DNA of 64,000 nucleotides from Sulfitobacter sp. HGT1 (GTDB lineage: Bacteria > Pseudomonadota > Alphaproteobacteria > Rhodobacterales > Rhodobacteraceae): NCBI RefSeq assembly GCF_013282155.1, contig NZ_BLWI01000002.1, positions 1 to 64,000 of the forward strand, written 5' to 3'. The notes under the pieces are model-generated. The model worked only from the letters and a program-made list of their open reading frames with translations. It did no database searches and had not been told where the DNA came from. The number at the start of each line of letters is the position of its first letter. Position 1 is the stretch's first letter. The translations under genes were made by a program, and so were the position numbers. This document shows positions 99 to 11,017 of the stretch, one piece after another.

Positions 99-623
99 TC
101 AGAGATTTTTCAGAAAACCACGAATATTCTCTTCGGCAAAATCAAGAATGGCAGTGTCGTTCAGCTTGCCGGCGTCGACCTTTGCATTGGCCATGGGAAC
201 AACGACCTCTTTGCATGTATAGGTTTCTGCAAGCATGCCGTTGAGGATATACTTCAGGTGGGATTGCGCGCGCACCCCACCCAACGCACCACCGGATACG
301 GAAATGACAAAGCATTTCTTGCCCTTGAACACAGATTCAAACGCGGGCCGCGACGCCCAGTCGATCGCGTTCTTGAGAACGCCAGGAACGCTGTAATTAT
401 ATTCAGGCGTAACGAACACAAGACCATCGGCATCATGTATTTGCTTGATCAAACCAGTCGCCGCAGGCACGTCGCCCAGATCTGCATTGTAGTGCGGCAG
501 CCCACCGATGTCGGCGAAGCTGCAGGTCACATCAGACCCAAGCCGGTCAACAAGCGCGCGTGCCGCAGCTTTAGAAGCAGAGGCTGCCCGCAGGCTTCCG
601 ACCACGAAAAGTAGATTGGTCAT
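99..623 (-). CDS. NADPH-dependent FMN reductase family protein
   Basis: This 174-residue protein has the flavodoxin-like fold of the NADPH-dependent FMN reductase (chromate/quinone reductase) family. The phosphate-binding loop GSLRAAS lies at residues 9-15, and the segment PEYNYSVPGVLKNAIDW near residue 73 is the family signature around the flavin. Members move electrons from NAD(P)H to FMN, quinones or other small acceptors in the cytoplasm. It is the last gene of the minus-strand catabolic operon, 20 bp behind the TRAP large permease, so it probably supplies reduced flavin or reduces an intermediate of that pathway. The substrate cannot be told from the sequence. Length is normal and no defect is seen. 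Confidence 0.85.
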   Translation of the reverse strand: MTNLLFVVGSLRAASASKAAARALVDRLGSDVTCSFADIGGLPHYNADLGDVPAATGLIKQIHDADGLVFVTPEYNYSVPGVLKNAIDWASRPAFESVFKGKKCFVISVSGGALGGVRAQSHLKYILNGMLAETYTCKEVVVPMANAKVDAGKLNDTAILDFAEENIRGFLKNL

Positions 624-643
624 GGGTGATCTTCTCTATTTGT

Positions 644-1957
644 TTACAGACGGGCGAGCCACGTCGCGATTGAAGGGAAAGCAATGATCAGCGCCAGCGA
701 GACGAGCATGGCGATAACGAAAGGAAACGCCCCACGAAAGATTTGGCCGACTTTAAGGTCAGGGTCATCCATAGCGGATTTGATCGTGTAGACGGACAAT
801 CCAAAGGGCGGGGTCAGAAGTCCGATCTCAACGGCGACAACTGTCAGCACGCCAAACCAGATCAGGTCGAACCCGGCGGCATTGGCCACGGGCAAGGCAA
901 TCGGCAGCATGATCAACATGATCGAGATCGAGTCGATCAGACAACCCAGCGCGATGATGATCAGCAGATACAGAATGAGAAAGCCAAATGGACCAACCGG
1001 GCCAGACAGAAAGAATTCCGCCAGTTCGCGCGGCACGCCAGACAAAGCCAGCATGCGGCTAAAGAAGGTCGCGGCCATGATCAAAAGCAGGACAGATACG
1101 GTGATTTGACCGGTTTCGACCAACAGCTTCCAAAGCGTGCCATTCCCAAGCGACTTGCGCAGCAATGCGATGACCAGCGCGCCGAAGGCACCCGCTGCAC
1201 CAGCCTCGGTTGGGTTAAAGAACCCGCCGTATAAACCACCCAACACCAGCATCATCAGACTGACGATGGGTATCGACTTTCGGACAATTTCGCCTCCGGT
1301 AATATCGTGGAATTCGATCGTGTCCTCAGTGTTGGCAAACACAAAGTTCTTTTGGGTCTTCGCCAACAAAATGATCGTTGCTGAAAACAAAACCGCCAGC
1401 AAAAGGCCCGGCCCAATCCCGGCGAGGAACATCCGCCCGACCGATTCTTCGGCCAGTACCGCGTAGACAATCATCAACAGCGAAGGCGGGATCATCATGC
1501 CCAACACTGAGGAACCGGCGACAACGCCAGTTGCGAATTTCTTGGTGTATCCGTGTCGCGTCATTTCTGGCACCGCCACACGGCTAAAGACGGTTGCGGA
1601 TGCAATGGAAATGCCGGTGATCGAGGCGAACACAGCATTGGCAAAGACAGTGGCAATACCAAGTCCAGCAGTCACGCGCTTTAGCAAGCGTTCAAAAACG
1701 TCAAAGGTATCCTTACCGACCCCCGACACCGTCACAAGCAGCCCCATAAGAACAAACAGGGGCACGACGGCAAAGAGATATTCTTGCAGTGAATCGTTGG
1801 CCACCGCACCGATCATCCGTGTCGCAACGGCTTCATTCCGGATCAAGGCAACGCCTGCAAAAGACACAAGCAGCATCCCGATACCGATGGGTAGCCCGAT
1901 GTAGATCAACAGGATCAACGCGCCAATGGCGTATATCCCAATTTCAATAGGGGTCAT
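644..1957 (-). CDS. dctM: TRAP transporter large permease (DctM)
   Basis: The 437-residue, very hydrophobic protein is the large (12-TM) permease of a tripartite ATP-independent periplasmic (TRAP) transporter. It forms the sodium-coupled translocation channel in the inner membrane. Typical DctM features include the N-terminal membrane segments, a conserved Gly/Pro-rich region (FNPTEAGAAGAFGAL) in the middle and LLTPPFGLSVY near the C-terminus. Its start overlaps the stop of the small permease gene by 4 bp (ATGA), which implies translational coupling. The adjacent CoA-transferase and ring-cleavage genes suggest a carboxylate cargo, but the substrate is unknown. Confidence 0.93.
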   Translation of the reverse strand: MTPIEIGIYAIGALILLIYIGLPIGIGMLLVSFAGVALIRNEAVATRMIGAVANDSLQEYLFAVVPLFVLMGLLVTVSGVGKDTFDVFERLLKRVTAGLGIATVFANAVFASITGISIASATVFSRVAVPEMTRHGYTKKFATGVVAGSSVLGMMIPPSLLMIVYAVLAEESVGRMFLAGIGPGLLLAVLFSATIILLAKTQKNFVFANTEDTIEFHDITGGEIVRKSIPIVSLMMLVLGGLYGGFFNPTEAGAAGAFGALVIALLRKSLGNGTLWKLLVETGQITVSVLLLIMAATFFSRMLALSGVPRELAEFFLSGPVGPFGFLILYLLIIIALGCLIDSISIMLIMLPIALPVANAAGFDLIWFGVLTVVAVEIGLLTPPFGLSVYTIKSAMDDPDLKVGQIFRGAFPFVIAMLVSLALIIAFPSIATWLARL

Positions 1958-2523
1958 TGGGGGTCAGCTCCTGTGTCGGACGTCCGCAGGTTGCTTGCGG
2001 CCCGCACGATGAATTCAATTGCAGCCACGGTCACGCCCAACAGGATCATTGCGCGGAATGGCCACGTCGGCAGTGTCGCGATACCGGTGACACCGATAAA
2101 TTCGCCAGAGCTGAAATCTTTTTCGAAAATTCGCAGTGTTGACCACGCGATCAGGCCAAGCATGGCGGCACCAACAAAATCAAACAGAGCGGCAATCAAA
2201 CGGCCCGATTTGGGAAAGCGGCGCTTGAAAGGTGGCAGAAAAATCTCGGTCCGCGCTAGCCTGTCGGCCCGCACTGTCGTGGCAAGTTGCAGATAAACGA
2301 TCATCACCAGAACCAATGCCCCAAGTTCCGACACCAATGGCAAGGATGCGCCAAGCAGGTTGCGGAATACGATATCGGCGCAGATAATGATCATCAGAAC
2401 ACCGATCATCAGCGTTCCTAAGACCGCGAGGCCTTCCACGACGAATGCCCAAATGCGGGCAATACCGTGGCTGCCGTGCCCACGCGATACGCGGGCACTG
2501 TCTGGTTTGTTTTCAGTTTTCAC
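1954..2523 (-). CDS. dctQ: TRAP transporter small permease (DctQ)
   Basis: The 189-residue protein has the four-helix arrangement of the TRAP small permease, with a hydrophilic N-terminal extension of about 25 residues before the first membrane segment. DctQ supports the large permease and the binding protein in the inner membrane. It sits between the genes for its two partners, 12 bp downstream of dctP and overlapping dctM by 4 bp. Assignment rests on position, hydropathy and the stretch RIFEKDFSSGEFIGV between the second and third helices, which is common in this family. Confidence 0.88.
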   Translation of the reverse strand: MKTENKPDSARVSRGHGSHGIARIWAFVVEGLAVLGTLMIGVLMIIICADIVFRNLLGASLPLVSELGALVLVMIVYLQLATTVRADRLARTEIFLPPFKRRFPKSGRLIAALFDFVGAAMLGLIAWSTLRIFEKDFSSGEFIGVTGIATLPTWPFRAMILLGVTVAAIEFIVRAASNLRTSDTGADPQ

Positions 2524-2535
2524 AGGTCTGGACCG

Positions 2536-3606
2536 TTACTTGTCCCAGTCACGCGCAGGGGTTTCACCCGCAGCACGCAACCCGTCCATGTACTCTGACA
2601 AAAAGGCGGTACCGGGCGCGCCCTGCTCATCGACAGCAGCAGCCCATTCGCCAGCTAGGTCAGGCAGCATGTCCACCCAAGCCTGACGTTCGCCAGAAGG
2701 CATTTGGACGATCGTCACTGGTGGCGATTGCTCGGCACCATTTTCAACCATCAGATTCATCATCAACTCGTGACGATCCACCATGTCCTGTCCGTGGCTT
2801 TCTGTGTAGTAGGCACCGGCCTCGATCATCGCATTCTGTACTGCTTCTGGCAGGCCATCCCATGTGTCGCGGTTGATTGCGACAGCACCCGAGAACGCCG
2901 CACCGGCGTCGAAGCGGTTGATGTAAGGTGCGACCTCATAAAGCTTGATCGGCATCGCCCCAAGCGCCAACGTCAAAGCCCCGTCAGATACACCTGTCTG
3001 AACATCCGTGTAGAATGTTGTCAGCGCACCATCGACAGCGTTGGCACCCGTGCCACGCAGCCAGCTACCCAGAACACCGGGGGCAGAAAGCTTCATCCCG
3101 TTGATGTCGGCAATACCTGTCAGTGGTTCTTTGGTGTAGATGTCATATAGGTCCGTTGCGGTCAGGCCCAGAACCTTGAGGTTGTGATCTTCCCACTCAG
3201 CGCGGAAGGCGTCGTTTGTTTCAAACAGGCTTTCCATAACGTCCAGCAAGACGGGCGGGTTGGCTGTGGCAAACGGTGTATTGGTCGATACTTGGCTCAG
3301 TGGAAGCTTTGCCGCTTCCAAGAACGAGAACACCCAGCCTACGTCAGTGATGCCTTCTTCAACAGAACTCAGCGTTGCGTTGGCTTTATACAGCGTGCCG
3401 CCAAAGGCTTCGTTCCATGCGATTTCATATTCACCGCTTTCAGCAAGGATTTCATCCGTGCGCGCCATGAAATGCGTTTGGATCATGCCAACCCATGGCA
3501 CAACGGTTGGGTGGCTGGACGCCACTGTGATATCAATCGTCTCTTGCGCCAGCAAAGCCGCAGGAAAGGCGATCACCGCCGTCATTGTTCCTAGAAAAGT
3601 CTTCAT
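2536..3606 (-). CDS. dctP: TRAP transporter substrate-binding protein (DctP)
   Basis: This is the periplasmic solute-binding protein of the TRAP system, 356 residues including a signal peptide (MKTFLGTMTAVIAFPAALLA). The start at 3606 is chosen over an upstream ATG at 3639 because it gives a proper signal peptide and has the Shine-Dalgarno stretch GAGGGAGGAA just upstream. The mature part opens with IDITVASSHP, typical of DctP proteins, and ends in an acidic, Trp-containing helix. Family members bind organic acids through a conserved arginine. It follows a YCII gene in the same operon. The ligand is not identifiable, though the neighbouring genes suggest an aromatic or dicarboxylic acid. Confidence 0.9.
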   Translation of the reverse strand: MKTFLGTMTAVIAFPAALLAQETIDITVASSHPTVVPWVGMIQTHFMARTDEILAESGEYEIAWNEAFGGTLYKANATLSSVEEGITDVGWVFSFLEAAKLPLSQVSTNTPFATANPPVLLDVMESLFETNDAFRAEWEDHNLKVLGLTATDLYDIYTKEPLTGIADINGMKLSAPGVLGSWLRGTGANAVDGALTTFYTDVQTGVSDGALTLALGAMPIKLYEVAPYINRFDAGAAFSGAVAINRDTWDGLPEAVQNAMIEAGAYYTESHGQDMVDRHELMMNLMVENGAEQSPPVTIVQMPSGERQAWVDMLPDLAGEWAAAVDEQGAPGTAFLSEYMDGLRAAGETPARDWDK

Positions 3607-3625
3607 CGTATTCCTCCCTCGATGT

Positions 3626-4030
3626 TCAGTTGATTTCAAAAGTCTGTGTTGAGTAGTCGAGACGCACGCTTATTGACCCTTCGTTGATCATCCACGGGCG
3701 GACCGTGAAAGTGCGTGCGCCGCATTGATGCATGGGGTCGCGTTCTGCGATGGCGATGGCCTCCGCGCGCGATGCGGCGCGTATGACGACCATGCCTTCG
3801 CCCTCCCAATGGTCTTCGTCGTCGGTCCACAAGGGCCCTGCCGCATACATGATGCCGTCTTTTTCAAGCCCGACCTGAAAGGCAAGATGCGCCTCAAGAT
3901 TGGCAAAAACCGCGCCCAGCCCGTCTGTTGGCGTCGTAAAGATCGCGTAAAGCTGCTTTTGCAGCATCGCACTGCTGGCTTCACGCACGGCGGCGGCTGG
4001 TACGGCTTTGGGGTTGTCCACGTCACTCAT
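3626..4030 (-). CDS. YCII-domain protein
   Basis: A 134-residue protein with a YCII/ferredoxin-like domain at about residues 24-115. The His-Asp pair seen in this family is present (H48 and D58), followed by GPLWTDDED and the segment RAEAIAIAERDP that ends the fold. YCII proteins are small dimers; some act as dehydrochlorinases or isomerases in aromatic catabolism and many have no known role. The start is supported by GGAGGAG six bases upstream of ATG. It lies between the CoA-transferase and the TRAP binding-protein gene, so a role as isomerase or lactonase-like helper in the same pathway is plausible but unproven. Confidence 0.8.
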   Translation of the reverse strand: MSDVDNPKAVPAAAVREASSAMLQKQLYAIFTTPTDGLGAVFANLEAHLAFQVGLEKDGIMYAAGPLWTDDEDHWEGEGMVVIRAASRAEAIAIAERDPMHQCGARTFTVRPWMINEGSISVRLDYSTQTFEIN

Positions 4031-4061
4031 GTTGTTGCTCCTCCCTTGTAGCCCAATGGTG

Positions 4062-5210
4062 TCAGCTGGCTTTGCGCGCGCTGTTCAGTTCGGCCCTGAT
4101 TTCATCGCCGTGCTCATCAAGCGTCGGCGGCGGCAGAACCTCATATTCGGGCGTGTCATCAAAGCTGTAAGGCGGGCGCACCGTGGTAAAGCTGCCCATC
4201 TCGGCGTGCTCGGAAGTGACCGCGATGCGCAGATGCTTTGCTTGTGGGTCTTCAAGTGCCTCATCCGCGTCATAAGCCGGTGAATGCGGGACCTCTGCTG
4301 CCTCAAAGCGGGCACACCATGTGTCGCGCGTCTCAGCCTTGAAGATCGGCGTCAAAATCTCGATCATCTCGTCTTGATGTTTGATCCGCTCAAGACGTTC
4401 AGCAAATCGTGGATCTTCTTTCAGCGCCTCTTGCCCTGTCGCAGACAAGAACCCTTCCCAGAACTTGGTCGGCGAAGACATGTGAATGGCGACCCATTTG
4501 CCGTCGCTGCATTCGAAGGTGTAACTTTGGGACACAACCGGGCGCGACAGTGGGCCCATGACTTCACCCGCTGAATAGTGGTGCGTAAAGCTGTCGAGGT
4601 TGAAATGCGCCATCGCTTCCAACATCGAGATATCCAACCTGCGGCCCTTGCCCGAGACGCCACGTTCGACCAAGGCCGCCATAATGCCCATTGCGGCGTA
4701 TTGGCCAGTCACGGCATCGGCAATCGCAGGGCCGATAACCCGTGGATTTTTGGGCGGCGTAAGCAGACGCAAATACCCGCTCGCGGCCTGTGCAACAGTG
4801 TCATAAGCAGGGCGGTCGCGGTATGGACCAGACTTGCCAAATCCTGAAATCGCGCAATAGATCAGAGTTGGATTGATCTTGCGCAGATCCTCTCCTCCAG
4901 CACCCAGTTTTTCCGCCACACCGGGGCGGAAATTCTGGATGAACACATCCGCCGAGGCGATCAGATCATGAAACGTCGCCAGGTCGTCGGACAGCTTTGT
5001 ATCCAGCGCGATCGATCGCTTGTTACGGTTATACGTCTGGTAATGCGGTGAATAGAGCCCGCCTTTGAACGCACGGAACGGATCACCGGAACCGGGTCTT
5101 TCAACCTTGATGACATCGGCACCAAGATCGGCCAAATGCATCGAGGCTGCAGGACCGGTAATGTATGTTCCCATCTCGATGACGCGGATATTTTTCAGAA
5201 TTTTGACCAT
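4062..5210 (-). CDS. Family III CoA-transferase (CaiB/BaiF)
   Basis: The 382-residue protein matches the CaiB/BaiF (formyl-CoA transferase) family, which moves CoA between carboxylic acids in the cytoplasm. The N-terminal motif GPAASMHLADLGADVIKVE, the segment FIQNFRPG near residue 90 and the catalytic aspartate in IADAVTG (D165) are all present. The start at 5210 (MVKILKNIRVIEMG) is preferred to the ATG 66 bp upstream because it matches the family N-terminus and avoids overlap with the previous gene. The CoA acceptor is likely the product of the pathway encoded around it, and the citryl-CoA-lyase-like gene 10 bp upstream may act on the thioester it forms. Confidence 0.9.
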   Translation of the reverse strand: MVKILKNIRVIEMGTYITGPAASMHLADLGADVIKVERPGSGDPFRAFKGGLYSPHYQTYNRNKRSIALDTKLSDDLATFHDLIASADVFIQNFRPGVAEKLGAGGEDLRKINPTLIYCAISGFGKSGPYRDRPAYDTVAQAASGYLRLLTPPKNPRVIGPAIADAVTGQYAAMGIMAALVERGVSGKGRRLDISMLEAMAHFNLDSFTHHYSAGEVMGPLSRPVVSQSYTFECSDGKWVAIHMSSPTKFWEGFLSATGQEALKEDPRFAERLERIKHQDEMIEILTPIFKAETRDTWCARFEAAEVPHSPAYDADEALEDPQAKHLRIAVTSEHAEMGSFTTVRPPYSFDDTPEYEVLPPPTLDEHGDEIRAELNSARKAS

Positions 5211-5220
5211 AATGCCCGCC

Positions 5221-6030
5221 TCAGGATGTTGAATTTGAAGGTTTTGACGTCTCACCATCGTAGGAAATCGCCACATCGGCCTGATGCGACATGATGAACC
5301 CGATGGACCGCAGTGATTCTTCGTAAAGATGGGCTGCCAGACCGGCGGTGCGCGCCAATAGTGGCACCGCTTTCAGGGCCTCCAACGGCCAACCTGCATC
5401 CAGAATGACCGCCGGTATCGCACCGGACACATTGATTGGCAGCGGTCTGTTGATGATGCCGGGTGCGTGTTTGGCCAGCGCACGAAGCGTTTCAATATAT
5501 CTCCCTGTCACACCCAGATCATCTGCAATATCCAGCAATTTGATGGCACGCGGGTCACCGTCGCTGTGTTGGGGGTGGCCAAGGCCGGGGACTTTCTTGC
5601 GCTGCGCCTTGAGCTCGTTAAGGCATGCGATTGCCGCTGTCTCAAGGTCGGTGCCGTCGGCATCTGCCTTTGCCATGACCTGCGCCAGATATTGCCCAGA
5701 AACCTCGGTGCTGCCCGCCACAACAGAACCCATGCCCAGCAGACCTGCGGCCATAGCGCCCTGCCATGCCTCGGGGCCTGCGGCCAACGTCATGCGCGCC
5801 GCCTGAACGCTAGGGACCAACCCGTGTTCCGCAATCGCGACAAGACAAGCATCAAGCATCTTGCGTTGCGCAGATGATGGCTTTTGACCGATCACCAGCA
5901 GCCAAAAGTAGTCACTGAAATCAATCTGACCGATCAAATCGTCACACAGGTCATACCCCCGCACCGTGATCGAATCGACGTCCGATGTCGCGATTGCTGT
6001 TAAAGCCTGATCCTGTTTGCCAATTCGCAT
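5221..6030 (-). CDS. Citryl-CoA lyase / citrate synthase-like protein
   Basis: A 269-residue member of the citrate synthase superfamily, shorter than citrate synthase (about 430) and the size of the stand-alone citryl-CoA lyase-like group. The catalytic-type histidines are visible in AEHGL (H69) and GLGHPQH (H152), the latter equivalent to the GFGHRVY loop, followed by DPRA. Such proteins cleave or form a C-C bond between a CoA thioester and an oxoacid. The start at 6030 has AAAAAGGA upstream and replaces an unlikely ATG at 6078. As first gene of the minus-strand operon, paired with a CoA-transferase, it probably performs the retro-Claisen step that ends the pathway. The true substrate is unknown. 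Confidence 0.82.
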   Translation of the reverse strand: MRIGKQDQALTAIATSDVDSITVRGYDLCDDLIGQIDFSDYFWLLVIGQKPSSAQRKMLDACLVAIAEHGLVPSVQAARMTLAAGPEAWQGAMAAGLLGMGSVVAGSTEVSGQYLAQVMAKADADGTDLETAAIACLNELKAQRKKVPGLGHPQHSDGDPRAIKLLDIADDLGVTGRYIETLRALAKHAPGIINRPLPINVSGAIPAVILDAGWPLEALKAVPLLARTAGLAAHLYEESLRSIGFIMSHQADVAISYDGETSKPSNSTS

Positions 6031-6052
6031 ATTGTGTCCTTTTTCGCATACC

Positions 6053-6064
6053 GAAAATATTTTC
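6053..6064. promoter_or_regulatory. Palindrome resembling an IclR-type operator
   Basis: The perfect 12-bp palindrome GAAAATATTTTC lies in the 159-bp divergent region, 23 bp upstream of the citryl-CoA-lyase-like start. Its form is close to the known IclR-type consensus (TGGAAAT-ATTTCCA). Because an iclR-family gene starts at 6190 on the other strand, this is a reasonable binding site for that regulator. The role is inferred from position and symmetry only. Confidence 0.4.
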
Positions 6065-6189
6065 TCTTGCCGAAACAATTGCAGCGAATTAAGGTTTCGT
6101 CAAGCTTCATGTTTCCTGCCAACATCACGGCACTTCATTGAAACAAAAACGGGAGGCAAAGATGACGGCGAATTTGAACAAGGTGCTGC

Positions 6190-7050
6190 ATGCTTGAGCT
6201 TGGAAAAAATCAGGATCCGGCAGCGTCTAAGCCAACGCAGAAGCGCAACAAAAACGAGCTTGAAAGACCAGCCGAATTTGTCGAGGCGCTTGCAAAAGGC
6301 CTTGCTATTATTGAAAGTTTTGATGTCTCCAGCCCCGAAATGACCCTCAGCGAAATTGCGCGGAAGGTCGGCCTAAGCCCAGCGGCTGCGCGACGGAGTC
6401 TGATCACGCTCAAGACGCTTGGCTATGTCGGGCAAAACAACAAACGCTTTCACCTTCGCCCCAAGATCATGACCTTGGGATCAGCGTTCTACTATTCAGC
6501 GCGAATCGATGAAGTGCTCCAGCCATTCCTGCGAGATTTGGTGGCAAGGTTCGGCGATGCCTCTTCTGTTGGCACGCTCGATGGCAAGGACGTGATCTAT
6601 ATTGCCCACAGTTCTGTTCAGCGCGCGCGCCGTGCCGCAGCGGTCGTTGGTGCCCGTTACCCGGCCTACGCGACATCGCTTGGTCGCGTCTTGCTTGCCG
6701 GTCTTCCAGACGCTGAACTTGATGCCTATTTTGACGACCTTGTCATTGCGCCGCTCACATCCAAGACAATCACCGATCCAACCGCATTACGTGCAGAAAT
6801 TGATGCCGCGCGCGCGGCGCATTATTCAACGACAGTAGATCAGCTTGACTATGGGATCACCGCGCTGGCCGTCCCGATACGCGCGGTGGATGGCCGGACA
6901 ATCGCTGCCCTCAATACATCAGGCTACAGCGGCATCATTGATGCCGACTATTTGATCAACGAACGGCTACCGCAAATGCGCGCCGTAGCATCCAGCATTG
7001 CTGAGACCCTCACGCGCTATCCCGCGCTTGCATCGGTCATCGGACAATAG
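6190..7050 (+). CDS. IclR family transcriptional regulator
   Basis: The 286-residue protein has the IclR layout: an N-terminal winged helix (residues about 35-95, with LSEIARKVGLSPAAARRSL as the helix-turn-helix) and a C-terminal effector-binding domain containing DGKDVIYIAHS and the closing block ALNTSGYSG. IclR regulators of this branch (PcaR/PobR/PcaU type) usually control aromatic acid degradation and respond to a pathway intermediate. It is transcribed away from the CoA-lyase/TRAP operon and leads the amidohydrolase-dioxygenase genes, so it probably controls both arms. The N-terminal 30 residues are charged and poorly conserved, and the exact start is less certain. Confidence 0.9.
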   Translation: MLELGKNQDPAASKPTQKRNKNELERPAEFVEALAKGLAIIESFDVSSPEMTLSEIARKVGLSPAAARRSLITLKTLGYVGQNNKRFHLRPKIMTLGSAFYYSARIDEVLQPFLRDLVARFGDASSVGTLDGKDVIYIAHSSVQRARRAAAVVGARYPAYATSLGRVLLAGLPDAELDAYFDDLVIAPLTSKTITDPTALRAEIDAARAAHYSTTVDQLDYGITALAVPIRAVDGRTIAALNTSGYSGIIDADYLINERLPQMRAVASSIAETLTRYPALASVIGQ

Positions 7051-7077
7051 AAGGTCTTTCAGGAGGGAAAACCAAAC

Positions 7078-8589
7078 ATGTGTAGACTTTGCGATCCGCA
7101 AAAACCCCAGTTGCCCTGCCCCACGCGGCGCGACTTTCTTAAGGCAAGCGCCGTCGCGGGCGTCGCTGGCACAGCCGGTATTTCAATCGCGGGCACGGCC
7201 CACGCGCAACAAGCTGCTGCTTCAACATTGCCCGAAGGCGTCGGAACACCCGGTCGGCGTGTACTGATCAAAGGCGGTGCTGTCATGTCGATGGACGACG
7301 CCGTGGGCAACTTTGCCGTGGGTGATGTCTTGATTGACGGCAAGAATATTATTGCCGTGGGTGCCAATATCGATGCGCCCGACGCGGCCGTGATTAATGC
7401 GGCAGGCAAGGTCGTCATGCCCGGGTTTGTTGACACACACCACCACCAGTTCGAAACCGCCCTGCGCAGCCAACTGTCCAACGGTATTCTTGTCAACGAT
7501 GGCCGCCCTGCAAATGCATCCAATTATTACGAGACGATCCTGCAGGGATTTTCCATGCATTATCGTCCCGAGGACGTCTATATCAATGAACTGTTTGGCG
7601 GCATCTCGCAGCTTGATGCTGGCGTCACAACCGTCATGGATGTCAGCCAGATCCACCATTCGCCAGAACATTCAGACGCGGCCATCGAGGGCCTGCGCGA
7701 TGCGGGTCGTCGCGGTGTCTTTGGCTATTTCGAAGGTTGGGGCGATCGCGCCAAATATCCGGGGGATGCTGCGCGCATCAAAGAACAGTACTTTTCATCC
7801 GACGACCAACTGACAACAATGGTCATGGGCGGCGAAATATACCTTCCCGGATACGAAGAAGCGTGGAAAATCGGCCGCGAATTGAGCCTGCCGATTGCAC
7901 TGCATGTGGTCGGAACGTTTGGTATGCAACCAACCTTTGACGAACTGGGCGCTGCTGGCATGTTCGGCGAAGACAATATTTTCATCCACATGACCGGAAT
8001 GTCTGATGAAGGTTGGAAGTACGCTCAGGACGCCGGTGCGCACATCTCACTTTCGGTCCCGATTGAGATGCACATGCGCCACGGCACGCCGCCGATCCAG
8101 AAGGCCATCGACATGGGAATGTCCACGTCATTGTCGACGGACGTGGAATGCACCATGACGGCTGATTTCTTTACCCAGATGCGCGGCTTGATCACGCTGC
8201 AACGCATGATTGCCAACGAAAAGGCGCTGTCAGGTCAGGAATATCCAGAACTGATGCAGTGCATGCAAGCCATTCGCCATGCCACGATGGGCGGCGCTGA
8301 AGGGCTGAAGCTGGATCGCAAGATCGGGTCACTGACGCCGGGCAAAGAGGCAGACATCATCCTGCTGGATGCCGAAGCTATCAATGTTGCACCGCTGAAC
8401 AATGTCCCCGGTGCCGTTGTGACCCTGATGGAGCGTAGCAACGTCGATACAGTTATGGTCGCCGGTCAGGTGAAGAAATGGAAAGGCCAGATTCTGGGCT
8501 TTGACATCGAACGCCTGCGCGGCGAGTTGGAAGCAAGCCGCGACTATCTGTTCGAAGCCGCTGGCGTCGAACGCGACCTTTTCGCCTAA
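7078..8589 (+). CDS. Tat-exported amidohydrolase family protein
   Basis: A 503-residue metal-dependent amidohydrolase with a twin-arginine signal (PTRRDFLKAS, residues 15-24) and likely cleavage after AHA near residue 43. Metal ligands of the cytosine deaminase/TrzN-type subgroup are visible: HxH at H121/H123, H276 (IALHVV), H304 (FIHMTG) and D355 (LSTDVE). Members hydrolyse C-N or C-halogen bonds on rings. Export to the periplasm is unusual for this subgroup and fits a first hydrolytic step before TRAP uptake. An odd feature is Cys2, Cys5 and Cys14 ahead of the arginines. A Shine-Dalgarno AGGAGGG precedes the start. The substrate is unknown. Confidence 0.88.
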   Translation: MCRLCDPQKPQLPCPTRRDFLKASAVAGVAGTAGISIAGTAHAQQAAASTLPEGVGTPGRRVLIKGGAVMSMDDAVGNFAVGDVLIDGKNIIAVGANIDAPDAAVINAAGKVVMPGFVDTHHHQFETALRSQLSNGILVNDGRPANASNYYETILQGFSMHYRPEDVYINELFGGISQLDAGVTTVMDVSQIHHSPEHSDAAIEGLRDAGRRGVFGYFEGWGDRAKYPGDAARIKEQYFSSDDQLTTMVMGGEIYLPGYEEAWKIGRELSLPIALHVVGTFGMQPTFDELGAAGMFGEDNIFIHMTGMSDEGWKYAQDAGAHISLSVPIEMHMRHGTPPIQKAIDMGMSTSLSTDVECTMTADFFTQMRGLITLQRMIANEKALSGQEYPELMQCMQAIRHATMGGAEGLKLDRKIGSLTPGKEADIILLDAEAINVAPLNNVPGAVVTLMERSNVDTVMVAGQVKKWKGQILGFDIERLRGELEASRDYLFEAAGVERDLFA

Positions 8590-8604
8590 AGCATGACCTA
8601 TATC

Positions 8605-8654
8605 CCCGCAGCAACATGCTGCGGGATCACCTTATGAACAGGCCCGACCGGGCC
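8605..8654 (+). other. Two intercistronic hairpins
   Basis: Between the amidohydrolase and the dioxygenase genes lie a perfect 9-bp hairpin (CCCGCAGCA, loop ACA, TGCTGCGGG at 8605-8625) and a short second one (GGCCC, loop GACC, GGGCC at 8641-8654). There is no U-tract, so they are more likely to set the relative mRNA levels of the flanking genes than to act as full terminators. Confidence 0.4.
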
Positions 8655-8679
8655 ACCCGATTGATGAAGGAGTGATAAT

Positions 8680-9540
8680 TTGGCTCAATTAGTTGCCACC
8701 TTGGCCTCGACCCACCACCCGTTTTACCTCAAGGCGACAACTGCGCCGCCCGCGGAGCAGCCACCCTTTGCGCCAGAGTGGAAGCGCAAGATCGAAGCCT
8801 ACCGTGAAACGCTGGAACGCACGAAGCCTGATATTCTGGTGATGATCGGCTCGGACCACTTCCACCAGATTTTTCTGGACAACTGCCCGCAGTTCCTGAT
8901 CGGCAAAGCGCCACGCTATGACGCGACATTCTATAATGAAGAACGCGAATTCGGCATTCCGAAATACGTGCTGGAAGGCGACGAAGACATGTCCGGCTTC
9001 ATGCACCAGAACCTGATGGATCAGGACTTTGACTTGGCATTCTCCAACGAGCTGAAGATCGACCATTCGATCATCTGCCCTATCATTACCGTACGCCCCG
9101 ACAATGACCTGCCGGTGGTGCCGATATACACAAACATTTTCGCCCCACCGCTGCCGTCGCCAAAGCGCTTTTATGAACTGGGTCGGGCAATTCGCAAAGC
9201 AATTGACGCCTACCCTTCGGACAAACGCATTGCGGCCATCGGCACGGGGCATCTTTCATTGGAACTTGGCGGACCGCGCCAGTTCATGGAAACCGGACCC
9301 GACCCCGAATTCGATCTTCAAGCGATCGAGTGGCTGCGCAACGGCGACATTGATGCGATCCTTGCCAATGTCGATCACGAAAGCATGGCCAAAAGCGGCA
9401 ACGCGACCCACGGCTTCCTGAACTTCATTCTGATGTTGGGTGTGGCCGGACCCGAAGGCGCGGATTACGTCGACAACTATGATCTGTTCCACACGATGGA
9501 AGCCTACTTTACTTGGTATCCCAAGGAGACCGCAGCATGA
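8680..9540 (+). CDS. LigB-type extradiol ring-cleavage dioxygenase, catalytic subunit
   Basis: The 286-residue protein belongs to the LigB (type II extradiol dioxygenase) superfamily, whose Fe(II) enzymes open catechol-type rings. The iron-ligand histidines are seen at H12 (ASTHHPF) and H60 (GSDHFH), with H129 (KIDHS) and the catalytic-type H191 in GTGHLSLELGG. The third ligand, Glu242 in LigB, is not obvious: the corresponding segment here reads SGNATHGFLNF (residues 239-249). Translation probably begins at TTG 8680, as AAGGAG lies seven bases upstream and no ATG is well placed. It overlaps the LigA-like gene by 4 bp, so both subunits are likely made together. The aromatic substrate is unknown. 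Confidence 0.85.
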   Translation: MAQLVATLASTHHPFYLKATTAPPAEQPPFAPEWKRKIEAYRETLERTKPDILVMIGSDHFHQIFLDNCPQFLIGKAPRYDATFYNEEREFGIPKYVLEGDEDMSGFMHQNLMDQDFDLAFSNELKIDHSIICPIITVRPDNDLPVVPIYTNIFAPPLPSPKRFYELGRAIRKAIDAYPSDKRIAAIGTGHLSLELGGPRQFMETGPDPEFDLQAIEWLRNGDIDAILANVDHESMAKSGNATHGFLNFILMLGVAGPEGADYVDNYDLFHTMEAYFTWYPKETAA

Positions 9541-9902
9541 GCAAGTATTACGTCAACAAATTCCTATTTACCGTAGATCGGGACCCCGAATACCTTAAGC
9601 GGTACACCGAAGACCCGCGCAATTTCGTCGCAACATGGGAACAGTCAATTGGACCAAGGCTAAGCGATGCAGAGATGTCCACTGTCAACGGGTTTACACC
9701 GGAAGAACGCGAAGCACTGATCAACCACGACTATGTGGCACTGTTTGAAATGGGCGCGCATTTCTTCCTGAACCTGACGATCTTCATCGGGATCTATGAT
9801 GAGCCATATATGGAAAAAAGCGGACCGCTGGCGTTTCAAAAAGAGTTCGCAGCCAAATTGCAGCATTGGGTTGGTAAGGATTATCCATCTGTCGCGACAT
9901 GA
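9537..9902 (+). CDS. LigA-like dioxygenase small subunit
   Basis: A 121-residue helical protein with the signature of the protocatechuate 4,5-dioxygenase alpha subunit (LigA) family, in particular ALINHDYVALFEMGAHFF at about residues 66-83. LigA closes the active site of LigB and has no catalytic residues of its own. The start at 9537 (MSKYYVNKF) overlaps the stop of the LigB-like gene as ATGA and is preferred to ATG 9513, which lies inside that gene. It is the last gene of the plus-strand arm, and insertion-sequence debris begins just after it. Confidence 0.8.
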   Translation: MSKYYVNKFLFTVDRDPEYLKRYTEDPRNFVATWEQSIGPRLSDAEMSTVNGFTPEEREALINHDYVALFEMGAHFFLNLTIFIGIYDEPYMEKSGPLAFQKEFAAKLQHWVGKDYPSVAT

Positions 9903-10118
9903 ACTAACCCTTTGAAGACAAATATTAGTCTTTCCCAAACTATGGGGCCACTGGGACGTGATCCTTGCGGCAGCATGACTTCCACCGATTGGCGCAAATG
10001 GTGCTGTCAGACAAATGCGAACCAGTCTCTGTTCTTCAGCAACCTCAATCTGTCAGGCTGCGCAGAGACCGCGCCACTCGGCCAGAGCAGCGGCGCGGTT
10101 CTTCGCGAGCCAAAAGCC
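9903..10118 (+). other. IS3 left-hand debris with trace of orfA
   Basis: This stretch carries no intact gene. Its last 33 bases (about 10090-10122) read AARFFASQKP and stop, in the frame and position expected for the end of an IS3-type orfA (the common AAAFFA ending), with the TGA overlapping the GTG of orfB. Upstream of that nothing resembles the helix-turn-helix of orfA, so most of orfA and the left end of the element appear to be lost. No left inverted repeat matching the right flank was recognised. Confidence 0.45.
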
Positions 10119-11017
10119 GTGAGGTTCAGGTTTGTGGAAGAGCACCGAGATCAGTTTCCGACAGAGCGCTTGTGTCATGCTATGGAGGTCAGCGCGCGCG
10201 GATTGCGGGCTTTCCGCAGTCGGCCAGCCAGCCGCAGGCAGCGATCGGATCTTGTTGCGTTGGCGCATATCAAGGAACAGTCACGCCTCAGTCTGGGCAG
10301 CTACGGACGCCCACGGATGACCGAAGAGCTGAAGGAGATCGGATTGGATATCGGTCACCGCCGTGTTGGCCGTTTGATGCGCCAGAACGGCATATCGGTG
10401 GTGCGAACGCGCAAACATAAAGTCACAACGGATAGCAACCACAAGTTCAACATTGCACCAAACCTGCTAGATCGCGACTTTGTGGCTGAGCGCCCGAACC
10501 AGAAATGGGCTGGTGACATCAGTTACGTCTGGACAGGTGACGGGTGGCTGTATTTGGCCGTGATCCTGGACCTGCATTCCCGACGCGTTATCGGCTGGGC
10601 CGTTAGCAATCGCATGAAACGCGATCTGGCGATCCGGGCGTTAAAAATGGCTATAGCATTCTGCTCACCGCCCAAAGGCTGCGTCCATCACACAGATCGT
10701 GGGTCGCAATATTGCTCTCACGACTATCAGAAGATCCTGCGCCAACACGGGTTCACCGTGTCCATGAGCGGCAAAGGGAATTGTTATGATAATGCCGCCC
10801 CCTCCCGGCAGCATGCTTTGCATGCGCCTGCCGGGCAATGGTCGAGACGTTCTTCAAAACCATCAAGGCTGAACTGATCTGGCGGAGGTCATGGGAAACA
10901 CGGCGGCAGGCTGAAATGGCGATCTTCGACTACATCAACGGCTTCTACAAACCGCGCTGCCGCCACTCAGCACTGGGCTGGAAAAGCCCCGTCGCTTTCG
11001 AACGGAAAGTGGCTTGA
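10119..11017 (+). pseudogene. IS3-family transposase orfB, frameshifted by a 38-nt insert
   Basis: The reading frame shows an IS3/IS150-type OrfB: HTH_21-like region (LGSYGRPRMTEELKEIG), then the integrase core with the first aspartate in GDISYVW and the second in HHTDRGSQY, up to GNCYDNA. There 38 extra bases (10800-10837) interrupt the gene and shift the frame. The missing end, with the catalytic glutamate (MVETFFKTIKAEL) and the typical tail RHSALGWKSPVAFERK, continues in another frame from 10838 to the TGA at 11015-11017. With orfA also missing, the element is probably inactive on its own. It separates the catabolic cluster from the nuclease and metal genes. Confidence 0.85.
10800..10837. 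repeat. Palindromic insert within IS3 orfB
   Basis: The 38 bases that separate GNCYDNAA from MVETFF contain an almost perfect hairpin: CCCGGCAG CATGC (10804-10816), loop TTT, GCATG (10820-10824), a three-base bulge CGC, then CTGCCGGG (10828-10835). Without it the conserved transposase frame joins exactly. It looks like a small palindromic (REP/RPE-like) element. If it were 39 bases long the reading frame would be open, so a one-base loss may have caused the frameshift. Confidence 0.75.

Follow-up and report, generated by a model that had tools for sequence, protein, structure and literature searches.

Intradiol and extradiol cleavage of aromatic rings are taught as two chemistries on unrelated folds. 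The extradiol enzymes closest to the proteins described here are LigAB and DesB, the protocatechuate 4,5- and gallate dioxygenases, in which we take His12, His61, and Glu242 of LigB (Glu239 of DesB) to be the iron ligands, and His195 of LigB, from the motif GGxSH, to be the catalytic residue. Intradiol routes that employ hydroxyquinol 1,2-dioxygenase are expected to use maleylacetate reductase, a transferase of the PcaIJ/CatIJ type, and a thiolase. The subject of this work is a group of eleven genes from Sulfitobacter sp. HGT1, located in a stretch of 64,000 nucleotides (the window) at the start of contig C2 (NZ_BLWI01000002.1), with window base 1 as the first base of the contig. The genes at positions 99-9902 are a real conserved unit. 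The cluster combines a LigB-fold protein, which lacks two residues characteristic of extradiol enzymes, with a CaiB-type CoA-transferase and a citrate-synthase-fold, citryl-CoA-lyase-like protein (CCL), in which the catalytic His and Asp of the family are replaced. In a sister cluster, an intradiol dioxygenase occupies the place of the LigB-fold protein and its LigA-like partner (together LigBA). The pathway is probably real, and its chemistry is perhaps new.

All eleven genes named in the first-pass annotation of this DNA are present, in the two divergent arms that it described, as judged from Pfam and NCBIfam matches, among which that of LigA is below the gathering score. The minus-strand arm extends from the FMN reductase to CCL, and the plus-strand arm from the IclR regulator to the LigA-like protein:

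99-623, minus strand: NADPH-dependent FMN reductase family (FMNred; Pfam FMN_red, 4.3e-34), perhaps a quinone or flavin reductase
644-1957, minus strand: large subunit DctM of a tripartite ATP-independent periplasmic (TRAP) transporter (Pfam DctM, 2.2e-84)
1954-2523, minus strand: TRAP small subunit DctQ (Pfam DctQ, 1.7e-13)
2536-3606, minus strand: TRAP solute-binding protein DctP (Pfam DctP, 6.2e-26)
3626-4030, minus strand: YCII-family protein (Pfam YCII, 1.5e-10), a possible tautomerase
4062-5210, minus strand: CaiB-type class III CoA-transferase (Pfam CoA_transf_3, 5e-106), with the presumed catalytic aspartate D137 intact
5221-6030, minus strand: CCL (Pfam Citrate_synt, 2.9e-21; NCBIfam PRK06224.1-5), without the catalytic His and Asp
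6190-7050, plus strand: IclR regulator near the PcaR/PcaU/PobR group (Pfam IclR; NCBIfam TIGR02431, 247 bits, below the cut-off of 285)
7078-8589, plus strand: amidohydrolase of the ATZ/TRZ type with a twin-arginine translocation (Tat) signal, hereafter AHS (Pfam Amidohydro_1 and TAT_signal, 7.9e-6 for the latter; NCBIfam PRK08204, 407 bits, cut-off 391)
8680-9540, plus strand: LigB-fold protein (Pfam LigB, 1.7e-29)
9537-9902, plus strand: LigA-like small subunit (Pfam LigA, E 7e-4, 20.1 bits against a gathering score of 25.3)

The LigA gene starts with the ATG at 9537, which results in a four-base overlap with the stop of LigB. The starts preferred from alignments are 6030 for CCL (the most likely one), 5210 for CaiB, and 3606 for DctP; longer starts are possible.

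The conservation of the cluster was analyzed in 88 LigB loci, comprising the best 80 of at least 518 relatives from GTDB genomes (two motif patterns) and eight plasmid loci, taken out of 11 matches with at least 66% identity. The set contains near-duplicates, namely two loci from Hoeflea alexandrii and two near-identical Rhizobium loci, and the figures therefore count loci, not events. Gene presence was scored by tblastn with the window proteins; greedy calling of the longest open reading frames (ORFs) overlooked many real genes. LigA adjoins LigB in 88/88 loci. CCL is present in 72 loci, CaiB and IclR in 71 each, and AHS in 57, in 43 of them with at least 60% identity. Both CCL and CaiB are found in 71 loci, in several gene orders and in two phyla, which bears out the earlier proposal that the genes belong together and rules out that the homologues never co-occur. 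The TRAP genes are less widespread (DctM 40, DctP 38, DctQ 37 loci). Homologues of FMNred (38 loci) and YCII (34 loci) are confined to loci that carry CCL. At thresholds of 60% identity for DctM and 50% for FMNred, the numbers are 35 and 21, respectively; the remainder are partly distant paralogues.

The two histidine ligands of LigB, H12 and H60, are kept in all 89 aligned rows, as is the pair D128-H129, and H13, H62, H191, E195, N241, and E274 are invariant. The position of the extradiol glutamate ligand is occupied by a glycine (G245), and that of the catalytic histidine of GGxSH by a leucine (L194, within GHLSL), both in 89/89 rows. The residue preceding the lost glutamate, H244 in the window, is a histidine in 75 rows, glutamine in seven, alanine in six, and glycine in one, and is thus not a general substitute for the glutamate. 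DesB and 15 of 17 distant relatives have both the glutamate and GGxSH; the two exceptions, L012 and L013, which are among the weakest matches, deviate or are unaligned there. The AlphaFold model of LigB, calculated from 62 sequences, has a mean predicted local distance difference test score of 83.2 and a predicted template modelling score of 0.88, and parts of residues 62-68 and 196-202 score below 50. The best structural matches of the model are DesB and LigAB (TMq 0.84), with sequence identities of 24-25% in the structural alignments. The top six PDB matches of the AlphaFold model of the LigA-like protein are all DesB and are weak (E 0.16-0.78, TMq 0.45-0.49). Judging from the alignment and the model, LigB has the LigAB fold without two features that define extradiol enzymes, and the LigAB-type extradiol cleavage first proposed for it is not supported in that form. 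With its active site rebuilt in this way, the cleavage by LigBA need not be extradiol. Mutation of the catalytic histidine of HPCD (H200F) can reportedly turn an extradiol enzyme into an intradiol one; a literature search for this change found nothing.

CCL matches the citryl-CoA lyase 6hxp with an E-value of 1.1e-27, and its citrate-synthase-type fold is assigned from sequence only. It also matches the NCBIfam family PRK06224.1-5, named citryl-CoA lyase, with 309 bits against a cut-off of 193. We assume for CCL the residue roles of citrate synthase, which comprise the catalytic His and Asp, the His of the motif GHP, and the substrate-binding arginines. V105 and S203 of CCL align with the catalytic His (AHGGA) and Asp (NVDG) of 6hxp. 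In all 73 rows, the histidine is replaced by V, I, F, or Y, and the aspartate by S or A, whereas H153 (of GHP), H156, R162, and R228 are invariant. A second alignment contained 13 additional rows, four from LigBA loci already counted and nine from other contexts, which include Burkholderia, Cupriavidus, Roseibium, Bosea, and Ochrobactrum, and both residues are absent throughout. The aligned proteins without the catalytic pair thus amount to 82 distinct sequences (73 + 9). CCL is predicted to retain the side of the active site that handles the hydroxy or keto acid and to be altered on the acetyl-CoA side. The name citryl-CoA lyase therefore denotes family membership here and does not establish a function, and the citryl-CoA lyase chemistry of the first-pass annotation is not supported in that form. 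Most of the CCL-like proteins from the nine contexts outside LigBA loci (L107-L115) are publicly annotated as citryl-CoA lyase, although both catalytic residues are absent from them; those of Roseibium and Ochrobactrum adjoin genes for acyl-CoA dehydrogenases, not aromatic genes, and that of Roseibium also an HMG-CoA lyase gene. Because the 82 aligned proteins lack the residues that give the enzyme its name, such annotations need care.

CaiB retains D137 in 72/72 rows, which agrees with its proposed activity as a CoA-transferase if this residue is, as we assume, the catalytic aspartate. The metal ligands that we presume for AHS (His-x-His, His, His, and Asp) are intact in 58/58 aligned rows and, together with the TAT_signal match, speak for the exported amidohydrolase of the original proposal. 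A motif similar to RRxFL is present in 25 of 43 close AHS relatives and in four of 14 distant ones. Given their conservation at the counted residues, LigB, CCL, CaiB, and AHS look like functional proteins under selection.

The function of LigBA is illuminated by clusters that carry a different ring-opening enzyme. CCL was sampled in 385 alphaproteobacterial genomes, 32 of which (the window genome included) have a match with an E-value of at most 1e-30, and 16 regions were inspected. In five of them (L161-L165), a CaiB of the window or Burkholderia type lies beside CCL. L161 is the whole window cluster minus LigBA, and a gene for an intradiol dioxygenase sits between IclR and CCL. The identities of its proteins to those of the window are 74% for AHS, 66% for IclR, 78% for CCL, 80% for CaiB, 73% for YCII, 74% for DctP, 56% for DctQ, 76% for DctM, and 64% for FMNred. 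The L161 genome contains no LigB relative (best E 0.78). The L161 enzyme has both intradiol domains, and its top PDB matches are PnpC (1e-63) and hydroxyquinol 1,2-dioxygenases. Similarly, L165 combines CCL and CaiB with an intradiol gene, and both LigB and LigA are missing from the region inspected. CCL was also found in 135 plasmid records, and 15 regions among 50 listed, beyond the LigB loci, were inspected. In two Variovorax plasmids and in Burkholderia glumae, the genes of CaiB, the intradiol enzyme, and CCL stand in a row, or nearly so, in regions without LigB and LigA. In two Cupriavidus plasmids, CCL is accompanied by an AMP ligase, a more distant enzyme of the intradiol family, another CaiB, and LeuCD. 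An intradiol gene occurs in none of the 88 LigBA loci.

The history of the replacement was reconstructed from a FastTree phylogeny of CCL and CaiB with 81 tips (80 loci and the window) and 650 columns. L161 nests in the clade of the window (support 0.905, 27 tips), as the sister of L055 and L058 (0.888), which indicates at least one exchange between LigBA and the intradiol enzyme within this clade. L165 and the group of Variovorax and B. glumae are placed elsewhere on the tree, and the exchange probably happened more than once. Since the replacement in L161 occurred within a cluster that otherwise has the same genes, LigBA probably performs a job that an intradiol dioxygenase can also do, which sustains the ring-cleaving role first assigned to it.

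Several observations weigh against this interpretation. CCL and CaiB are absent from 16/88 LigBA loci, four of which (L020, L030, L064, and L071) end within 5 kb upstream. No tested ring-cleavage gene lies near CCL in 13 of the 16 alphaproteobacterial regions (L163, L164, and L166-L176), and a Pfam scan of the ORFs of L163, L164, and L166 was uninformative on ring cleavage. Among the 15 further plasmid regions, two (L127 and L129) have CCL alone; in Caballeronia and Paraburkholderia, CCL and CaiB were seen in regions with no ring-cleavage gene, and the regions not named in this text represent other contexts. CCL by itself is therefore not tied to ring cleavage. The genome of L165 (G317) contains a 36% identical LigB fragment elsewhere, at a contig edge. 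Some nodes of the tree are weak, such as those joining L161 with L047 (0.563) and connecting the Variovorax and B. glumae group (0.401). Furthermore, the loss of the glutamate and histidine from LigB could signal that LigBA is not a dioxygenase, and the swap could instead mean that the two enzymes make different products, both of which enter a common CoA module.

We favor, with moderate confidence, a catabolic cluster that has spread horizontally and serves the breakdown of a polyhydroxylated aromatic acid in modified form (ester, amide, or lactone-like). The Tat-exported AHS would cleave the compound in the periplasm, and the TRAP system would take up the released acid. LigBA would then open the ring with O2, which is the task of the hydroxyquinol-1,2-dioxygenase-like enzyme in the sister clusters. 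YCII and the FMN reductase might tautomerize the product or hold a quinone reduced. CaiB, according to its family and intact aspartate, would transfer CoA to the ring-opened acid, and CCL would split the acyl-CoA, with acetyl-CoA and a keto acid as the probable products. For this step, CCL would rely on catalytic residues of its own, perhaps H156, which is invariant across the group, alongside the usual histidine of GHP. The IclR protein may sense the aromatic or ring-opened acid. The order of hydrolysis, import, opening, activation, and splitting put forward in the first-pass annotation is thus supported, and its labels LigAB-type and citryl-CoA lyase are not. A more specific version, to which we give only tentative credence, is that LigBA is a ring opener on the LigB fold, with a metal site and acid-base residues rebuilt for intradiol cleavage (between the hydroxyls) or another non-extradiol mechanism, which would allow its exchange with a hydroxyquinol-1,2-dioxygenase-like enzyme, and that the rebuilt CCL coupled to it replaces the thiolase, forming a new lower pathway.

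The first two steps agree with the distribution of hydrolases and transporters. Close AHS relatives (43 loci), S15-type hydrolases (six), and M20 aminoacylases (five) are mutually exclusive across the 88 loci, and none of the five M20 loci carries CCL. This pattern looks like a single slot, filled by one of three enzymes that would each hydrolyze an ester or amide to release an aromatic acid. The TRAP system is present in 33 of the 43 loci with close AHS, in line with the predicted import. Nine of the other ten, L023 and eight 86-100% identical loci, have ABC transporters of the branched-chain amino-acid type, and the tenth, L030, ends 1.4 kb upstream of LigB.

Hydroxyquinol dioxygenases are the nearest relatives of the L161 enzyme, and B. 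glumae and 5/88 LigBA loci encode an MhpA-like hydroxylase; both findings suggest that the substrate of ring opening is a trihydroxybenzene formed by ring hydroxylation. In some lineages, the product may be hydrated to a tertiary hydroxy acid, as suggested by LeuCD in the Burkholderiales clusters and by LeuD in four LigBA loci of Actinobacteria; this is in line with the earlier idea of a citrate-like intermediate. The window genome has no aldolase for 4-carboxy-4-hydroxy-2-oxoadipate (CHA; LigK/GalC) above the cut-off (best 99.9 bits against 304.5), which leaves room for CHA as the substrate, whereas the hydroxyquinol dioxygenase affinity of the L161 enzyme suggests a different class of substrate. 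Two adjacent weak intradiol matches in the window genome (C2:307144 and C2:307812, 29 and 33% identity) are perhaps subunits of a protocatechuate 3,4-dioxygenase. The carriers of the cluster include marine roseobacters, rhizobia, and soil actinobacteria, and the substrate may therefore be a widespread plant or algal aromatic. A MetE-like (Meth_synt_2) protein is encoded near the cluster in 8/88 loci (L022, L029, L047, L050, L054, L056, L057, and L073) and might serve to demethylate a methoxylated substrate.

The swap implies either that the ring carries three adjacent hydroxyls, that LigBA is not extradiol, or that different products enter one CoA module, and the loss of the catalytic histidine favors the second option. 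Under the first option, LigBA and the intradiol enzyme would cleave the same bond of a gallate-like ring, hydration of the product would yield a citrate-like tertiary hydroxy acid, such as CHA, and its CoA ester would be split by CaiB and CCL. We consider this unlikely, even though it would explain the swap without new chemistry, as intradiol and extradiol cleavage of a ring with three adjacent hydroxyls yield one product. The nearest solved relatives of LigB, the gallate dioxygenase DesB and LigAB, are consistent with such a substrate, as are the lack of LigK above the cut-off in the window genome and the LeuCD genes of the Burkholderia, Cupriavidus, and Caballeronia clusters, which encode a hydratase of citrate-like acids. 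However, LigB lacks the canonical glutamate and histidine, the L161 enzyme resembles hydroxyquinol dioxygenases, and near LigBA, LeuD is present in only 4/88 loci and LeuC in 0/88. Niveispirillum provides arguments on both sides. The LigJ/GalB hydratase and the LigU/GalD tautomerase were sought in the 16 CCL regions of other genomes. The Niveispirillum IclR, CaiB, and CCL genes lie beside canonical LigA, LigB, LigK, and 4-oxalomesaconate tautomerase genes, these four above NCBIfam cut-offs, and two neighbors read as LigC and LigJ have no family match above the cut-off; the L162 region, with its canonical LigB, belongs to the same record. The neighborhood fits a gallate-like substrate, but with LigK present, CaiB and CCL are not needed for CHA. 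Moreover, the cutting of CHA-CoA by CCL would produce an awkward diketo acid.

Still less probable, in our view, is that LigBA is a metal-dependent hydrolase, an isomerase, or another non-oxidative enzyme of the LigB fold that acts elsewhere in the pathway. The lost glutamate and histidine, the group-wide invariance of H13, H62, H191, E195, and N241, and the existence of LigB-fold proteins that are presumably not ring openers, such as MEMO1, would suit this role. It is opposed by the substitution of an O2-using ring-opening enzyme in the same cluster, by the retention of the LigA-like partner in all 88 loci, and by hydroxylases close to LigBA, namely the MhpA-like enzymes of five loci and P450 relatives in 10, all of the latter CCL-free. 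That the two arms are unrelated chance neighbors is highly improbable, as CCL, CaiB, LigB, and LigA stand together in 71/88 loci, in several orders and two phyla, despite the separate transcription of the arms and the 16 loci without CCL and CaiB, four of them ending within 5 kb upstream.

According to the record titles, the carriers of the catabolic cluster are Alphaproteobacteria and, in 14 loci, Actinobacteria; one title names Marinicella, of unchecked placement. The median identities of the 14 actinobacterial loci to the window are 74.8% for LigB, 60.8% for LigA, 38.0% for CCL, and 32.6% for CaiB, and their gene order is CaiB-CCL-LigB-LigA. CaiB and CCL of these loci are of another lineage, and LigBA may have been joined with a CaiB/CCL pair on more than one occasion. 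A LigB search of 145 genomes, the window genome included, gave 13 matches with an E-value of at most 0.001, and all non-self matches are only 24-35% identical. The cluster is thus patchily distributed and probably acquired. The GC content is 54-57% in the first 14 kb of the window and then mostly about 60%. An IS3-like transposase gene (rve, HTH_21) at 9912-10877 lies directly 3' of LigA, and the contig start is on the opposite flank; with these flanks, the cluster may be on a mobile island. In a related cluster on an Agrobacterium deltaense plasmid (L107), an IS66 element lies between an IclR gene and CCL.

LigBA loci without CCL and CaiB have varied partners (L020, L025, L038, L059-L061, L064, L065, L070, L076, and L095). 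The partners at CCL-free loci include P450 relatives in 10 and an M20 aminoacylase in five (L069 too), as well as a GMC oxidoreductase, two-component genes, a cytochrome c peroxidase, and an FAA hydrolase. Such loci perhaps represent a second pathway that shares the ring opener. The second LeuCD of the window genome (L123, G000:C4:58000-77000) was judged unrelated, as no ring-cleavage genes lie alongside it. Its neighbors, named from their ORFs with no family search, are a GntR-like regulator, TRAP, hydantoinase-like, and PEP-mutase-like genes, and the region is possibly a separate hydroxy-acid pathway.

No description of the gene set was found among the open-access literature matches listed; subscription papers were mostly outside the search, and a published description may exist. 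The auxin degradation pathway (iad) came into question for two reasons: dioxindole-3-acetate, a tertiary hydroxy acid, is similar to citrate, and some LigBA genes have M20 aminoacylases nearby. In the passages on iad in PMC12633357, the acetyl side chain of dioxindole-3-acetate is inferred to be removed after CoA activation, and the enzymes that the authors propose, by annotation, are an acyl-CoA synthetase and a ketothiolase. The words lyase, extradiol, and amidohydrolase do not occur in the text of PMC12633357 at hand, in which CaiB was not looked for. The iad pathway was rejected, as its passages give a synthetase and a thiolase and contain neither lyase nor extradiol (PMC12633357; PMC9613470). 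What iad, as far as these passages describe it, has in common with the window is the idea of acetyl removal after CoA activation.

Cupriavidus metallidurans is described, in the part of PMC2864759 concerned, as lacking the route of citryl-CoA synthetase and citryl-CoA lyase; it nevertheless has a CCL-like gene near a gene of the intradiol family (L128). The window CCL shares the citrate-synthase C-terminal fold, the GHP histidine, and the arginines of the motifs DPR and AR with the citryl-CoA lyase of the reductive TCA cycle (6hxp), but it lacks the catalytic His and Asp, and its partner is CaiB, not citryl-CoA synthetase. The hydroxyquinol 1,2-dioxygenase (PnpC-type) routes are related to the window through the family member that occupies the LigBA slot in sister clusters, and through the MhpA-like FAD hydroxylase of some of them. 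They differ in the lower pathway, in the place of which window-type clusters carry CaiB and CCL; maleylacetate reductase, a PcaIJ/CatIJ-type transferase, and thiolase are not named in the annotated clusters, in which no dedicated search for them was made. With LigAB and DesB, the window LigB shares the fold and the two histidine ligands, and its small partner weakly resembles LigA, whereas it has a glycine in place of the glutamate ligand and the leucine of GHLSL in place of the GGxSH histidine. An operon that exchanges members of the intradiol and extradiol families, with the extradiol-fold member lacking two catalytic residues, is a natural experiment on the choice of the cleavage site.

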